This document shows positions 1,848-13,343 of a stretch of DNA of 64,000 nt, piece after piece. The stretch is taken from NCBI RefSeq assembly GCF_009761675.1, contig NZ_QUZH01000027.1, positions 124,001 through 188,000 on the forward strand, written 5' to 3'. The notes under the pieces are model-generated. The model did no database searches. It worked only from the letters and a program-made list of their open reading frames with translations, and had not been told where the DNA came from. The stretch is from Bhargavaea sp. CC-171006. Lineage in GTDB: Bacteria > Bacillota > Bacilli > Bacillales_A > Planococcaceae. Numbering within the stretch: position 1 is the first letter of the stretch; each line of letters starts with the position of its first letter. The position numbers and the translations under genes were made by a program.

Positions 1848-2480
1848 TTATAGCAGTTCACCTTTACTCAACTTCCCGTGCCATTCGATCAGACTTGGGA
1901 GCGATGCTTTCGGTATCGCACCAGAGTCAGCTGCCGCATTCGCGAGTGCGTCAAAGTCGGTGAGGCTGTGGTGCGGCAGGCCGGCCTCTCCGAAATTCTT
2001 TTCTGCTTTTTCCAGACCATATGTAAAGATCGAAACAACCCCTAGGACATCGGCTCCCGCATCTTTCGCGGCAGCGGCTGCAGTCAGGCTGCTGCCCCCC
2101 GTCGAGATGAGGTCCTCAATGATCACCGTACGGCTTCCGTCCTTTAGCTCCCCCTCGATCTGATTGCCGCGGCCATGGCCTTTCGGTTTTGACCGGATAT
2201 AGATCATCGGCTTGTCCATCAGGTCGCTGACCCAAGCGGCATGAGGAATGCCGGCAGTGGCGGTGCCTGCAATCACTTCCGCTTCCGGATACTCCGTCCT
2301 GATCAATTCGGCCAGCCCCTGTGCGATGCGCTTCCGCACTTCAGGATACGACATGGTCAGGCGGTTGTCGCAATAGATCGGCGACTTGATGCCCGAGGCC
2401 CATGTGAACGGCTCTTCCGGACTGAAGCGTACAGCCCCGATCGACAGGAGTGCATCCGCAATTTCTCTTTTCATTGACAT
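1848..2480 (-). CDS. pyrE: Orotate phosphoribosyltransferase
   Basis: Joins orotate to PRPP to give orotidine 5'-phosphate, the fifth step of UMP synthesis. The N-terminus ([17 protein letters not shown]) is the classic family signature, and the PRPP-binding loop appears as [13 protein letters not shown]. Length 210 residues is normal. The ATG at 2480 is chosen because GGGAGG lies nine bases upstream; an in-frame TTG at 2489 has no such site. The start sits two bases beyond the pyrF stop, so translation is probably coupled. Last gene of the pyr operon, followed by a strong terminator. Confidence 0.97.
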
Positions 2481-2481
2481 T

Positions 2482-4860
<2,379 letters not shown>

Positions 4861-4864
<4 letters not shown>

Positions 4865-7800
4865 GCATGGACCTCCCGCGGAGACTTCACATTACGAGGA
4901 AGCATCGCCTCTGCCGAGAACGTCATCGATTCGAGGACGCGAAGTACGGCTTTGGTCGTATCGAGGGAAGTCATGCACGGAATTCCGTTTTCGACGGATT
5001 CACGGCGGATGCGGAACCCGTCACGCTCAGGCTGCTTGCCTTTGGTAAGCGTGTTGATGATGAACTGGGCTTCCCCCGTCTGGATGACGTCGATCAGCGT
5101 CTTGCCTTCGCCACCGATCTTGCCGACCGTCCTGACAGGCAAGCCCGCTTCGCGGAATGTTTCCGCAGTGCCTTCTGTCGCGAGCAGCTGGTAGCCGATA
5201 TCCGCGAAGCGCGCAGCGATGCCTGCTGCTTCTTCCTTGTCCTTGTCGGAAACCGTGAAGAGAACCGTTCCGTGGTCGCGTATTTCCATTCCGGAGGCGA
5301 TAAATCCTTTGTAAAGCGCTTTTTCGAATGTATCGTCCTTGCCCATGACCTCGCCCGTCGATTTCATCTCCGGTCCGAGCGTGATGTCGACACGGGCCAG
5401 CTTGGCGAAGCTGAACACCGGAACCTTCACATAAACGCCGCTGACCTGGTCAAGCAGCCCGGTCGGATAGCCCTGGCCGGTAATCGATTCGCCGAGAATC
5501 GCCTTCGTCGCGATATTGGCCATCGGGATGCCGGTGATCTTGCTGAGGAACGGCACCGTTCGGCTGGAGCGCGGGTTGACCTCGATGACATACACTTCGC
5601 CGTCTGCAATCACATACTGGATGTTCATGAGCCCGACAATGTTAAGTCCGCGGGCAAGCCGCTCCGTATAGTCCGTCAGTGTGGCGACCTGCTTGTCCGT
5701 GAGGCTCTGCGGCGGATAGACCGCAATGGAGTCCCCGGAGTGGACGCCGGCGCGCTCGACGTGCTCCATGATGCCCGGGATCAGGACGTTTTCGCCGTCA
5801 CAGATGGCGTCGACTTCGATCTCCTTGCCCGTCAGGTAACGGTCGATCAGGACCGGGTGCTCCGGGCTCGCCTCGACAGCATTTTCCATGTAGTGCATCA
5901 GTTCCTGCTCATTGTAGACGATTTCCATCGCTCGGCCACCGAGGACATAGGAAGGGCGCACAAGAACGGGATAGCCGATGCCGCGTGCAATTTCCGCCGC
6001 TTCAGGCGCGGATACGGCGGTTTTTCCGAGCGGCTGCGGGATGCCGAGTCCGCGGAGCGTCTCTTCGAACTTGTCTCGGCTTTCAGCGCGGTCGAGGTCT
6101 TCCAGAGTCGTTCCGAGAATTTTCACTCCTCGGGCTTCCAAAGCGTCCGCCAGGTTGATCGCCGTCTGGCCGCCGAACTGGACGATGACGCCTTTCGGCT
6201 GCTCAAGGTCGATGATCGCCATGACGTCCTCGATTGTGAGCGGCTCGAAGTAGAGCTTGTCGGAGATGGAGAAGTCGGTAGAAACCGTCTCCGGGTTGTT
6301 GTTAATGATGATCGCCTCGTAGCCGGCTTCCTGGATGGCCCAGACCGAGTGGACTGTGGCATAGTCGAACTCGACGCCCTGTCCGATCCGGATCGGGCCC
6401 GAACCGAGAACGATGACGCTTTCCTTGCCTGATTTCAGCGACTCATTTTCTTCTTCATAAGTGCCGTAGAAATAAGGCGTCTCGGATTCGAATTCTCCGG
6501 CACATGTATCGACCATCTTGTAGACCGGCACGAGTCCTTGTTCGGTACGCCACTCGTACACATCCCGCTCCTTCGTCTCCCAGAGTTCGGCGATGGTGCG
6601 GTCTGCGAAGCCCATGCGTTTCGCTTTGCGGGCGACCGTGCGGTCAAACGGGTTTTCCCTGAGCGTGTTTTCGTAGGCCACGATCTTTTCGAGCTTGTTC
6701 AGGAAGAAGAAGTCGATCTTGCTCCACTCATGGATCTCTTCCACCGTGACTCCGCGGCGAAGCGCCTCGCCGATGAAGAACAGGCGCTCATCGCCCGCGC
6801 GGCGGATGCGCTTTTCGATCCATTCCATCGAGAGGTCTTCCCCGTGCTTCAGATTCAGGTGGTAAAGGCCTGTCTCAAGGGAACGCACGGCTTTCAGAAT
6901 GGCTTCCTCGAATGTTCTGCCGATGGACATGACTTCCCCGGTCGCCTTCATCTGCGTGCCCAGGTTTCGCTTTGCGCTTTCAAACTTGTCGAACGGCCAG
7001 CGAGGGATCTTCGCGACGATGTAGTCGATCGTCGGTTCGAAGCAGGCATAGGTCTGTCCCGTCACCGGGTTCATCATCTCATCCAGTGTCAGACCGACTG
7101 CAATTTTGGATGCGAGCTTTGCAATCGGATAGCCCGTCGCTTTAGAGGCAAGAGCGGACGATCGGCTGACACGCGGGTTGACTTCGATCGCGTAGAAGTT
7201 GAAGCTGTCCGGGTCGAGCGCCAGCTGGACGTTGCAGCCGCCCTCGATTCCAAGCGCACGGATGATGTTGAGCGACACGTTCCGGAGCATCTGGACTTCA
7301 CGGTCGGACAGTGTCTGGACAGGTGCCACGACGATCGAGTCGCCGGTGTGGATCCCGACCGGGTCGAAGTTTTCCATGCTGCAGACAACAATGGCATTGT
7401 CCGCGGAGTCGCGCATCACTTCGAATTCGATCTCTTTAAAGCCTGCGATCGACTTTTCGAGGAGACACTGGCTGACCGGGCTGTACTTCAGGCCGCTCGC
7501 GACAATCTCTTCAAGTTCCTTGTCGTCGTGGCAGATGCCGCCGCCCGTGCCGCCGAGCGTAAATGCCGGGCGCACGATGACCGGATAGCCGATTTCCGCA
7601 ACGAACGCCTTTGCTTCCTCAAGATTATGGATGATGTCGCTTTCCGGTACCGGCACGTCCAGTTCGTTCATGAGGGAGCGGAACAGCTCGCGGTCCTCGG
7701 CTTTGTTGATGGCGTCCAGCTTCGTGCCGAGCACTTCGATGCCGAGTTCATCCAGAATTCCCGACTTGTCCAGGTCGATGGCCATATTGAGGCCGGTCTG

Positions 7801-8076
7801 GCCGCCGAGTGTCGGCAGGATCGCGTCAGGACGCTCCTTGCGGATGATCCGGGAGACAAATTCCAGGGAAATCGGTTCAATGTATACCTTATCCGCAATC
7901 TCCGTGTCGGTCATAATCGTTGCCGGGTTGGAGTTGATGAGGATCACCCGGTACCCTTCTTCTTTCAGGGAGAGGCAGGCCTGTGTTCCGGCATAGTCGA
8001 ACTCTGCGGCCTGGCCGATGACGATTGGCCCGGAACCGATGACGAGGATCGTTTCAATATCTGTGCGTTTAGGCAT
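4861..8076 (-). CDS. carB: Carbamoyl-phosphate synthase, large subunit
   Basis: ATP-grasp enzyme that makes carbamoyl phosphate from bicarbonate, ammonia and two ATP. It holds two homologous synthetase halves, each opening with a GSGPI(V/R)IGQ motif near the N-terminus and again near residue 555, and a C-terminal MGS-like allosteric domain. With 1071 residues it matches the usual Bacillus length. The start at 8076 ([11 protein letters not shown]) has AAAGGAG eight bases upstream; the longer open frame overlaps carA. No defect is seen, so ammonia-dependent synthesis should be intact even though the partner CarA has lost glutaminase residues. Confidence 0.98.
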
Positions 8077-9175
8077 TGGCGATGATCTCCTTTCCGTTGT
8101 GGCGCTCCATGATGTCGATAAACCGGTCGAACAGATGGTTGGAATCCTCCGGTCCCGGAGAAGCTTCGGGATCGAATTGGACGGAGAATGCCGCATGTGT
8201 CTCATGGGCAAGTCCCTCGACCGTGCCGTCATTAAGAGCGACATGGGTCACGGTCAGGCCTGTCCCTTCGAGAGAGTCCCGGTCCACCGCGTACTGGTGG
8301 TTTTGGGAAGTGATTTCCGTACGTCCCGTTTGCAGGTCTTTCACGGGATGGTTGCCGCCGTGATGGCCGAAGCGCATCTTGAATGTCTTCGCCCCGCAGC
8401 TGATGGCAAGCAGCTCGTGGCCGAGGTTGATGCCGAAGACTGGAACTTTTCCGAGCACTTCGCGGATAAAGGCAGGCGCTTCTTGAACATCTTCCGGATT
8501 GCCAGGCCCGTTCGAAAGAAGGATTCCGTCCGGATGCCAGGCGAGCACGTCCTCGGCAGAAGTATCGTAAGGAACGACCAGGACATCGCAGCCGCGCTTA
8601 TTCAGCTCGCGGAGAATGCCGTGCTTCATTCCGTAGTCTACGACGGCCACTCGCTTGCCGCGGCCCGGGCTCGGGTAAGGACGTTTGGTCGAGACGGCTT
8701 CGACGAGGCCCGGTGCCATTTCGGAGGCCGCCAGCACCTGAAGTGCTGTATTCAGATCAACATCCTTTCCGGCTTCGGTGAGCATTCCCTTCATCGTGCC
8801 TTTTTTGCGGATGATGCGGGTCAGTTTACGGGTATCGATCTCGGAAATCCCGGGAATGCTACGCTTTTGCATGAAGGAGGAGAGCGTTTCGTCACAGCGG
8901 AAATTCGACGGCTGCTCCTCGATTTCGCGGACCGCGAGTGCGCCGAGGTTCAGGTCGACCGATTCGGAGTCATCGCGGTTCACCCCGTAGTTGCCGATGA
9001 GCGGGTAGGTCATGACAAGAATCACGCCCGTATTGGACGGGTTCGTCAGTGCTTCCTGGTAGCCGCTCATGCTGGTCGTGAAGACGACTTCGCCGACCAT
9101 GCCGCGGTCCGCTCCGAACGCCTCTCCCTCAAATACCGTACCGTCTTCAAGAATCAGATATCGCTTTTTTGTCAT
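8069..9175 (-). CDS. carA: Carbamoyl-phosphate synthase small subunit with degenerate glutaminase site
   Basis: Belongs to the small-subunit family that normally hydrolyses glutamine and channels ammonia to CarB. Length 368 residues; both the N-terminal CarA domain and the C-terminal class I amidotransferase domain are full length. The nucleophile elbow, normally GICLGHQ, reads GINLGHE: Asn250 replaces the catalytic Cys and Glu254 the Gln. The catalytic His of FHPE is Asp335 (FDPEASPGP); the Glu at 337 remains. The codons (AAC at 8426-8428, GAT at 8171-8173) are unambiguous in this sequence. The protein is therefore predicted not to hydrolyse glutamine. It may act as a structural or regulatory partner, with CarB using free ammonia. 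Start at 9175 follows an AGGAGGG site and overlaps the pyrC stop. Confidence 0.95.
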
Positions 9176-10452
9176 TGTTGACCCTCCTGCCAAACGATGT
9201 TGCCGCCGAAGATCGTCATGACCGGCCAGCCTTTGCATGAGCGGCCTCCGAACGGAGTGTTCTTTCCTTTTGATGCAAATGTTTCAGGTTCAATTGTTTT
9301 TTCCTTTTCAAGGTCGATCAGGACAAGGTCAGCTGGCAGCCCTTCCGCGATTCGGCCGTATCCGAGGCCGAACACATCCGCCGGCTTTTCAGACAGCCAG
9401 TCCGTCAGCTGCTTGAGCGTCCACTTGCCTGTCACGACGAAGTTCGTGTAGAGCAGCGGGAAAGCCGTCTCGAGGCCCGTGATGCCGAACGGTGCCTTTT
9501 CCATCCCGGCCGCCTTTTCTTCAGCGGTATGCGGGGCGTGGTCCGTGGCGATCACATCGATCGTGCCGTCGAGCAGCCCTTCGTGAAGGGCTTCCAGATC
9601 TTCCTGTGCGCGGAGCGGCGGATTCATCTTCCAGTTTGCATCATTGCCCGGAATGTCGTCTTCCGTCAGCAACAGATGGTGGGGCGTGACTTCCGCCGTC
9701 ACCCGGATGCCTGCCGCCTTCGCGTCCCGGATTGTCCTCACAGACTCCTTCGTGCTCACATGGCAAACGTGATAGTGCGCGCCGGCCGCCTCTGCCAGAA
9801 GGACATCCCTTGAGATATGGACGGATTCAGCAATCGACGGGATGCCCGGGATGCCGAGCTCCCTGCTCCGCTTGCCGTCATGCATGGCGCCGCCATAGAT
9901 GAGCGTGTTATCTTCGCAGTGCGCCACGACCGGCATGCCGAGCCCCGCCGCATCCCGCATCGCCTCGTACATCATGCCCGCCGACTGGACGCCGACGCCG
10001 TCGTCTGTAAAGGCGAATGCGCCGTTTTGCTCCAACTCCGCCATGTCTGTCCGTTCCTTGCCTGCTTCGCGGATGGTGATCGACGCATAAGGCAGCACCC
10101 GGACCCGAGCGTTTTCTTCGATGAGCTCGTTGACCTTGCCGATGTTTTCCGCCGAGTCCGGGACAGGCCTCGTGTTCGGCATTGCACAGATGGTCGTGAA
10201 TCCGCCGCGCGCCGCCGCTTCCGTGCCCGTGCGGATCGTCTCTTTATGCTCGCCCCCCGGTTCACGCAGATGGACGTGCACATCGATCAGTCCCGGCGCG
10301 GCAAACCGTCCGCCTCCGTCGACGATCTCATGGCCTTCCTTAGGCAGTTCGTGCCCGATTTCCTTGAACAGGCCGTCTTCAATCAGGATTTCCCCATTCT
10401 TGAGTGTCCCGTTTTCATCCAGCATCCGGATGTTACTGATCAATGTGCCCAT
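9172..10452 (-). CDS. pyrC: Dihydroorotase
   Basis: Cyclises carbamoyl-aspartate to dihydroorotate, the third pyrimidine step. Class I zinc amidohydrolase: the metal-binding HVHLREPG is near residue 60, further ligands are in VVAHCED and HVCHVST, and the catalytic Asp is in VIATDHAPH near residue 305. Length 426 residues is typical. An AGGGGAGA site lies seven bases upstream of the ATG at 10452. It begins just after the pyrB stop and overlaps carA by four bases. Confidence 0.97.
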
Positions 10453-10453
10453 C

Positions 10454-11332
10454 TTAATCTCTCCCCTTCAATATCGATTCGAGTACTGCCATCCTCACAT
10501 AGACCCCGTTCTCCACTTGCCGGAAAATTCTGGAGCGGCTGTGTTCAACCAGTTCATCGGCAATTTCCACGCCCCGGTTGACGGGTGCCGGATGCATAAT
10601 GATCGCGTCTTTCTTCATCCGTTCCACACGCTCTACCGTCAGCCCGTAACGGTTGTGGTAATCTTCGGCAGAAAACGACCCGTCTCCGCTGTGCCGTTCG
10701 TGCTGGACGCGGAGCAGCATTACTGCGTCGCTGTCCGGAAGAACGTCTTCCCAATCTTCAACCGAGTTGAAATCGCCTTGCCATTCCGGCGGACAGAGAA
10801 TCCGGACGTCTGCTCCGAACATTTTGAGCGCGTCCCTGCCGGACTTGGCCACCCTGCTGTGCGAGACGTCACCGGCAATGGTCACCTTCAGTCCTTCCAA
10901 AGTGCCGAACTCCTCACGCAGTGTGAACAGGTCGAGCAGCGTCTGTGTCGGGTGCTGGCCCGAACCGTCTCCCGCATTGATGATCGCCACAGAAGTCCGG
11001 CCCTCCAATTCTTTATAGAAGCGGTCCTCCGGATGCCGGATCACAAGCGCATCAAGGCCGATTGCTTCAAGTGTACGAACCGTGTCGTAGAGGGTCTCTC
11101 CCTTCAGCGTGCTCGAGAACCCCGCTTCAAAGGGGATGACTTCAAGACCGAGCCTCCTCTCCGCCATTTCGAAACTTGTCTTGGTGCGTGTGCTCGGTTC
11201 GAAAAACAGATTGCTGATGTAATGGGTCCGGCCGATTTCCGGCACGGCCCCGCACCTCAGTTCCGCCGCTCTGTCGAGAATGCGGCTGATCCCATCCATC
11301 CCAAGCCGTGTGATTGATAGCAGGTGGTCCAT
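10454..11332 (-). CDS. pyrB: Aspartate carbamoyltransferase, catalytic chain
   Basis: Condenses carbamoyl phosphate with aspartate. The carbamoyl-phosphate site [13 protein letters not shown] is near residue 45, the [10 protein letters not shown] signature near residue 122 and HPAPVNRG near residue 246. Length 292 residues; no pyrI regulatory chain is present, as usual in Bacillales. The gene is preceded by a PyrR-type attenuator (11353-11450), so its transcription should fall when UMP is plentiful. Confidence 0.97.
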
Positions 11333-11463: not shown

Positions 11464-12750
11464 TTATTCGATTTCGCCCGCTTCGCTTCCTTCCGGCTTG
11501 CCCGGCAAGAGCAGGTTGAGCACTACCCCAAGGATGGCGGCGAGCGCCATGCCCTCGATTTTGAACGTTTCGCTGATTTCGATAGCCGCTCCTCCGATTC
11601 CCGTCACGAGAATGACAGAGGCGATCACCAAGTTGCGCTGCTTGTCGAAGTCGATGCCGTGCTCGACCAGCATGCGGAGACCGGAGGAAGCGATGATCCC
11701 GAACAGCAGGATGGAGATGCCCCCGAGCACCGCCTGCGGGATGGTGGCAATCAGTGCCATCAGTTTGCCAAGGAAAGAGAACAGGATTGCCAGTACCGCC
11801 GCCCCGAAAATAACGTGGATGCTGAACACCCTTGTCAGCGCGAGGACGCCGATGTTCTCTCCGTAGGTCGTCTTTGGCGGGCCGCCGACCAGCCCGCTAA
11901 AGAATGTTCCGAGCCCGTCGCCGAGAAGCGAGCGGTGGAGGCCCGGCTCCCTGATGAAGTTCCTGTCCACAATCCGGCCGAGTACCAGCTGATGGCCGAT
12001 ATGCTCGGAAATCGTCACGATCGCGATCGGCACCATGACTGCGAGAAGCGTTCCCGTCACTTGGAATTCGTAATGCACACCAGGCACGATAAAGTCCGGA
12101 AGCGCAAACCAGTCTGCTTCTCTGACCGGTGAAAAATCAATGATTCCGATAGCGGCCGAATAGACGTATCCGGTGACGATCCCGATCAGGACCGGCATGA
12201 GGCTCACCAGCCCCTTAAAGAAGATGATGCAGATGACGGCTGTTGCAAGCGTCACGATCGCGGCCGAGAAATGAAGAAAGCTGTATGTGCTTTCCCCGTT
12301 CACCTCGATGGTGCTTGCCATGCCGACCGCAGTCGGAGCAAGCGCCAGGCCGATGACCATGATGACCGGCCCGACGACGATCGGCGGCAGGAGCCGCATG
12401 ATCCACCGGTGCCCCGTTTTCCAGATCAGGAGCGAAACGAGCGCGTAGACCAGGGAGACAAACAAACTGCCGATCATGGCGCTGCCGATGCCTCCCGCCT
12501 GTGTCGCCACCTGGATCGGAATGATGAACGCGAACGAAGAGCCGAGATATGCCGGGACTTTGAATCCGGTCACCAGGATAAATACGATGGTTGAGATCCC
12601 GCTTGTCAAAAGCGCGATTGCCGGACTGAGTCCGACAAGCTGTGGAACGAGGATCGTCGCCCCGAACATCGCGAACATATGCTGTAGGCTGAGTGTCAGA
12701 AGCCTGCCATTTGACGGCTTATCCTGGATGTCGAGTACTGCGTTTGCCAT
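11464..12750 (-). CDS. uraA: Uracil permease
   Basis: NAT/NCS2-family proton symporter that imports uracil; called pyrP in Bacillus. It has about 12-14 hydrophobic segments over 428 residues. The family signature in TM10 reads GPPKTTYGENIGVLALTRV (about residues 285-305), and the N-terminal LSLQHMFAMFGATILVP is typical of uracil permeases. It lies 35 bases downstream of pyrR with no attenuator between, and is separated from pyrB by the attenuator. Confidence 0.96.
   Translation of the reverse strand: MANAVLDIQDKPSNGRLLTLSLQHMFAMFGATILVPQLVGLSPAIALLTSGISTIVFILVTGFKVPAYLGSSFAFIIPIQVATQAGGIGSAMIGSLFVSLVYALVSLLIWKTGHRWIMRLLPPIVVGPVIMVIGLALAPTAVGMASTIEVNGESTYSFLHFSAAIVTLATAVICIIFFKGLVSLMPVLIGIVTGYVYSAAIGIIDFSPVREADWFALPDFIVPGVHYEFQVTGTLLAVMVPIAIVTISEHIGHQLVLGRIVDRNFIREPGLHRSLLGDGLGTFFSGLVGGPPKTTYGENIGVLALTRVFSIHVIFGAAVLAILFSFLGKLMALIATIPQAVLGGISILLFGIIASSGLRMLVEHGIDFDKQRNLVIASVILVTGIGGAAIEISETFKIEGMALAAILGVVLNLLLPGKPEGSEAGEIE

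Positions 12751-12785: not shown

Positions 12786-13343
<558 letters not shown>

Follow-up and report, generated by a model that had tools for sequence, protein, structure and literature searches.

The window, meaning the whole stretch of 64,000 nucleotides of Bhargavaea sp. CC-171006 that was analysed, contains a pyr operon in the order pyrR-pyrP-pyrB-pyrC-carA-carB-pyrK-pyrD-pyrF-pyrE. The genes were located as follows:

12786..13328, minus strand: pyrR, pyr operon regulator (profile match)
11464..12750, minus strand: pyrP-like uracil permease, NCS2 family (TIGR00801 above cut-off)
10454..11332, minus strand: pyrB, aspartate carbamoyltransferase, a user of carbamoyl phosphate
9172..10452, minus strand: pyrC, dihydroorotase, overlapping the carA start
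8069..9175, minus strand: carA, small subunit of the pyr-operon carbamoyl phosphate synthetase (CPS), glutaminase site lost (codons, profiles, alignment, fold)
4861..8079, minus strand: carB, CPS large subunit, with the gate residues of the ammonia tunnel conserved; no other full-length copy was found in the genome
4097..4864, minus strand: pyrK, dihydroorotate dehydrogenase electron transfer subunit (profile match)
3186..4100, minus strand: pyrD, dihydroorotate dehydrogenase (start codon picked by eye)
2482..3189, minus strand: pyrF, orotidine-5'-phosphate decarboxylase (profile match)
1848..2489, minus strand: pyrE, orotate phosphoribosyltransferase (best model 173.6 bits, under the cut-off of 245)

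Against the PRK10720 uracil permease model, the pyrP-like permease scored 438.8 bits, below the cut-off of 477. Elsewhere in the window, at 286-1737 on the plus strand, a frame resembling the C-terminal part of multicopper oxidases followed by a long acidic tail of TNADTAVE-like repeats was noted by eye.

The carA reading frame runs uninterrupted on the minus strand from an ATG at 9175 to a stop ending at 8069 and encodes 368 aa. The overlaps with pyrC and carB, described as intact in the first-pass annotation, are present, with the pyrC stop at 9172 and the carB start at 8079. That annotation had also reported that this CarA lacks the catalytic Cys and His, and both the codons and an alignment with the E. 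coli protein agree. The relevant motifs read GINLGHE and QFDPE, with the following changes, each located from the sequence and the alignment:

8426..8428, minus strand: codon 250, AAC (Asn), at the position of the E. coli nucleophile Cys269
8414..8416, minus strand: codon 254, GAG (Glu), at the position of E. coli Gln273
8171..8173, minus strand: codon 335, GAT (Asp), at the position of E. coli His353

The E. coli equivalents were assigned using HMMER against the PDB together with a MAFFT alignment that included the K-12 gene. Glu355, the third member of the triad, is retained in the alignment to E. coli CarA. Glutamine hydrolysis by E. coli CPS is described as requiring both Cys269 and His353 (PMC6245113). 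A possible compensating Cys near the nucleophile elbow, Cys260, was considered and rejected, as a Cys-bearing relative (L040) also has Cys there. Both Pfam domains (PF00988 and PF00117) are present and the match to TIGR01368 is normal (454.5 bits, cut-off 307.35), so automatic annotation would name this protein glutamine-hydrolysing. That profile-based name would be wrong for a CarA without the Cys. The predicted model (pLDDT 91.8) superimposed on E. coli CarA (1cs0_B) with a TM score of 0.94 and 46% identity.

Asn was found at the aligned Cys position of CarA in all eight genomes of the genus sample (G000-G007), one of which (G006) is Edaphobacillus lindanitolerans, with a carA stretch 100% identical over 3319 bases to a record of that species (L134). 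The His position is occupied by Asp in six and by Asn in two of the eight. Glu and Asp are found at the Gln273 and His353 positions in G000, G001, G002, G003, G005 and G007, and Gln and Asn in G004 and G006, which suggests a possible stepwise decay of the site. The recurrence of both changes, Cys to Asn and His to Asp or Asn, in every genome of the genus rules out a base-call error.

The comparison was extended to the family, with 200 genomes searched and CarA read in 82 of them (88 loci, with six genomes read twice). Outside this genus and the Sporosarcina group, all 63 loci read (57 genomes) retain both Cys and His. In the Sporosarcina group (g3), Gly was found at the Cys position in 17 of the 17 CarA read (L292-L307 and L245), and one locus of this group was 100% identical to a Sporosarcina record. 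Exactly one CarA match was found in 19 of the 29 genomes of the group, 17 of these 19 having been read, and there was no CarA match at E 1e-40 in the other 10. With regard to these missing matches, 400 kb of G151 spanning the site where the pyr genes were expected contained no pyr operon. The Cys may have been lost once for the genus and the Sporosarcina group together or once in each. A tree of CarA joins the two (support 90); the CarB tree places the genus with Cys-bearing genera (support 1.0), and the replacing residues differ (Asn versus Gly).

Selection was estimated as dN/dS using our own NG86 script, with pairs of dS < 0.02 excluded, which dropped one carA pair. For carA, the six close species gave 0.033 and the full set of eight 0.075, with the glutaminase domain (0.033 and 0.078) and the N domain (0.032 and 0.069) equally constrained, and for carB the values were 0.028 and 0.044. 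Together with the open frame, the normal profile score and the fold, these values agree with the first-pass view that carA is not a decaying pseudogene. CarA of the genus is 61% identical to that of 18 family loci, compared to 72% among those loci, pointing to fast evolution on the genus stem, while the corresponding CarB values are 81% and 84%. CarA has 102 columns that are invariant across E. coli and the 18 family loci, and 8 of these are changed in at least six of the eight genus genomes, including those of Gln273 and His353. Cys269 is not among the 102 because one of the 18 loci (L245) has Gly. In CarB, 2 of 438 otherwise invariant columns are changed in the genus. The positions lining the ammonia tunnel (PMC4655335) are kept, namely E. 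coli CarA Gly293 (8 of 8 genomes) and CarB Cys232, Ala251 and Ala314, the CarB numbers being our own conversion.

The rapid change on the stem, seen in CarA much more than in CarB, and the Sporosarcina-group genomes without a CarA match would both fit a decaying relic, with pyrimidines coming from salvage and the operon on its way out. This is extremely unlikely for the genus, given that carA is kept in all eight genomes with no stop or frameshift, a normal profile score and a dN/dS of 0.03-0.08, and that all of the pyr genes are present in the window.

A pattern scan of a named genome collection was used to look further afield. Codons starting with T were excluded at the Cys position, so that neither Cys nor certain other residues could match. 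The scan recovered at least 114 loci whose product matched the CarA profile (from L062-L181, six of which were dropped), and among the 114 matches listed the Cys position is occupied by Gly in 104, Asp in four, Ser in three and Asn, Ala or Pro in one each. CarB was found in 101 of the listed loci and other pyr genes in 57. By record title, the listed loci belong to Bacillota (97), Bacteroidota (5), Actinomycetota (4), Pseudomonadota (2), Verrucomicrobiota (2), Omnitrophota (1) and Planctomycetota (1), with two unplaced. Cys-less CarA is therefore found in at least seven phyla, as judged by record title in a biased scan. Many of the listed records are metagenome bins, and individual loci could reflect faulty assembly or binning. 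The numbers indicate that Cys-less CarA recurs; they do not give its frequency. Lactobacillaceae, Syntrophomonas, Oscillospiraceae, Alistipes and Yaniella were among the listed sources, mostly with Gly, and many of the listed Lactobacillaceae loci have Glu at the Gln273 position too. A count of independent Cys losses was attempted using a tree of 236 CarA rows, which gave three state changes, and was dropped as almost no Cys-bearing CarA from other phyla had been sampled. The suggestion in the first-pass annotation that an inactive CarA inside a pyr operon would be unusual was too strong, as all 17 CarA from the Sporosarcina group are Cys-less, as are many from Bacillota and some from six other phyla by record title. 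A Cys-less pyr CarA is wider in extent and less unique than first thought.

The residues at the His position bear on the proposal that the old glutamine pocket has acquired a new job, binding a regulatory ligand or ammonium, with CarA acting as a sensor or feeder subunit. Glu254, Asp335 and Glu337 would make the pocket acidic, in six of the eight genus genomes two of the replacements are acidic residues close to the former active site, and the dN/dS values indicate constraint on the glutaminase domain among genus members. The residue equivalent to E. coli Gly293 is also kept, where human CPS1 is reported to have a tunnel-blocking Gln (PMC4655335). However, among the 114 listed Cys-less CarA the His position takes many residues (F in 23, Y in 15, H in 15, D in 12, Q in 10 and others in fewer), indicating no general trend to acids, and we regard a new role for the pocket as unlikely.

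The genome of CC-171006 is 99.81% complete and has one PF00988 match, one full CarA and one full CarB, and each of the eight genus genomes has one full-length CarB. With a single CarA and a single CarB, there is no second CarA to rescue the use of glutamine. The first-pass annotation had offered two possibilities, direct use of free ammonia or glutamine use through a second, arginine-pathway CarA elsewhere. Its description of an intact gene with a lost glutaminase site stands, with the gene conserved and dN/dS low, and ammonia use is the likely consequence; the second CarA was searched for in this genome and none was found. The pyr CarA is the only CarA in five of the eight genus genomes. Matches to OTC and ArgH above cut-off were found in all eight, so that carbamoyl phosphate probably goes into citrulline as well. 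As a further supplier of carbamoyl phosphate, carbamate kinase was considered and rejected on length. This enzyme is about 310 aa long, and none of the four AA-kinase matches per genus genome has a frame of fitting size (382-385, 473-477, 264-275 and 251 aa).

Ten frames in the CC-171006 genome were found with PF00117. PabA, GuaA, PyrG and HisH keep the Cys, GlmS- and AsnB-like frames start MCG (by eye), and the Cys of PurF is retained in all eight genus genomes. The class-I glutaminases with Cys would in principle be available to keep CarAB glutamine-using, if one of them (PabA, for example, or an unrecognised one) docked on CarB or fed it ammonia in trans. But none of them is a CarA, since PF00988, the CarA N-terminal domain, occurs only once, and PabA adjoins a synthase-like frame of its own (by eye). 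Docking of this kind would also displace CarA, which is under purifying selection, and we consider it very improbable.

Two further glutaminases of the lineage have lost the nucleophile:

L274, L275 (9771-10457 in G000:C6) and L276-L282: PurQ, glutaminase subunit of FGAM synthase
L283 (7761-8387 in G000:C11), L016, L017, L020-L023, L026 and L027: TrpG

The Cys is replaced by Gly in PurQ in seven of the eight genus genomes, the exception being E. lindanitolerans, which retains it, and by Ser in the TrpG of the trp operon in all eight. In alignments to relatives of known structure, both replacements fall on the Cys. The ten frames include a single PurQ-like one, and PurL is of the short type, which acts together with PurQ as a separate subunit. 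Both genes are less constrained than carA, with dN/dS among six and eight genomes of 0.085 and 0.138 for purQ and 0.085 and 0.208 for trpG. In a genome of a Cys-bearing genus (G084), purQ was not found in the 400 kb searched. The trp operon of the related genome G151 is without trpG, which suggests that loss of TrpG activity could be covered by PabA. CarA and PurQ are therefore strong cases of nucleophile loss, and TrpG is a weaker one.

In three genomes of the genus (G002, G005 and G007), a second CarA above cut-off was found in the following context:

L198 (G007), L199 (G005) and L200 (G002): amt, orphan carA, HTH-like gene and glycosyltransferase-like gene (last two by eye)

These three are also the only genus genomes with a match to Amt (PF00909), one in each, the other five, including CC-171006, having none. 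The second CarA keeps GICLGHQ and HPE, no CarB adjoins it, and there is no second CarB in these genomes. The orphan carA lies directly behind amt in the same orientation, 67 bp from it in G007 and 75 bp in G005, and the pair lies behind asnB, a glnA, dapF and dapL. In G000 and G003 (L284 and L286/L287), the asnB-glnA-dapL row is present and the amt/carA block is absent between identical borders. As amt and carA travel as one block, the correspondence of three out of three with five out of five does not amount to eight independent observations. The three holders do not form one clade on the CarB tree, and hence the block has been gained, lost or exchanged more than once. Relatives of the orphan were found in one genome in the family search (E 1e-105) and in 48 of a class sample of 398 genomes (E 1e-112), one of which was G005. 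The loci of the family genome and of 29 of the other 47 class matches were read (L207-L236). All 30 adjoin a carB, have both Cys and His and are 50-56% identical to the orphan. It is thus most likely that the orphan once had a CarB of its own and lost it; if used, it would work with the CarB of the pyr operon. A frame for a large glutamate synthase (approximately 1500 aa) was found in G002 and G005 only. In the amt-carA stretches L198-L200, no strict TnrA-type box was found, and the few relaxed matches do not lie at the amt start. Hairpin-like inverted repeats were seen by eye in the asnB-amt and amt-carA gaps (L199, 9666-9702 and 8268-8342); these are possibly terminators or processing sites, which would uncouple the genes.

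Taken together, the sequence comparisons point to the pyr CarAB of this genus being, most likely, an ammonia-dependent CPS with a structural CarA. CarA would be unable to form the cysteine thioester with glutamine, an expected loss of activity given the work on the E. coli enzyme, and CarB would take free NH3. The purifying selection on carA and the nearly unchanged CarB suggest that CarA has been retained for a structural, and perhaps a regulatory or allosteric, role beside CarB. The five genomes with neither Amt nor a second CarA would fit cells in which ammonia is usually in surplus, supplied for instance by amino-acid catabolism. As the nucleophiles of PurQ and of the trp-operon TrpG are also lost, the step from glutamine to ammonia would span more than one pathway. 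Ammonia can replace glutamine in E. coli CPS at high concentration, although the concentration needed is described as very high and probably unphysiological (PMC6245113). Other observations that weigh against ammonia dependence are the absence of any obvious adaptation to ammonia in CarB, the fast evolution of CarA on the genus stem, and the retention of Cys in PabA, GuaA, PyrG, HisH and PurF, which indicates that glutamine was not abandoned generally.

The spare CarA leads to a broader proposal, which is tentative and perhaps only one possibility among several. CarB of the genus may be served by exchangeable small subunits, the Cys-less pyr CarA when ammonia is plentiful and, in species with the amt-carA pair, the orphan CarA, coexpressed with amt, when it is scarce. 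Docking of the latter on the one CarB would restore the glutamine drive, in a lineage that would as a whole have turned from glutamine to ammonia for making pyrimidines, purines and tryptophan. If the orphan does swap in, this would be a simple genetic switch between an ammonia and a glutamine economy. Judged on these genome data, the most surprising part is the combination of the Cys-less CarA with an apparently dead PurQ and an amt-linked spare CarA.

A 2018 review generalises glutamine as the physiological nitrogen donor from the E. coli enzyme to every bacterial CPSase (PMC6245113), and the ammonia-only CPS has been described as the mitochondrial CPS I (PMC6022934). The genus, the Sporosarcina group and the scattered Cys-less CarA speak against glutamine as the donor for all bacterial CPSases. 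No report of a natural Cys-less bacterial CarA was found among titles and the opening parts of abstracts in the open-licence literature, a scope that makes this weak evidence of novelty.

The closest precedent is vertebrate CPS1, which retains an inactive glutaminase-like domain with the Cys replaced (Ser294 in human) and is reported to be ammonia-dependent (PMC4655335). Our CarA model matches CPS1 with a TM score of 0.87-0.88 by query length. However, CPS1 is one fused chain that needs N-acetylglutamate and serves the urea cycle, whereas here a separate CarA is found in a pyr operon. CPS1 is also described as blocking the old ammonia tunnel with Gln318 at the position of E. coli Gly293 (PMC4655335), where all of the genus genomes have Gly. 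E. coli CarAB (CPS II) is alike in fold and subunit layout, and its C269S small-subunit mutant (PDB 1c30) indicates that the complex folds without the nucleophile. Wild-type E. coli CarAB is glutamine-dependent; the loss described here is natural, genus-wide and accompanied by the changes at the His and Gln sites. Archaeal PurF' proteins without the N-terminal Cys are likewise natural nucleophile-less paralogues and have been proposed to be ammonia-dependent (PMC3261824), but PurF' is a class II enzyme that occurs beside an intact PurF, unlike CarA and PurQ, which are the sole copies found in the CC-171006 genome. For NAD synthetase (NadE), bacteria are reported to differ in the use of free ammonia or glutamine, the ammonia form being described as having no glutaminase domain or subunit at all (PMC3376133, PMC7196632), whereas in this genus the glutaminase has been retained but is apparently dead.
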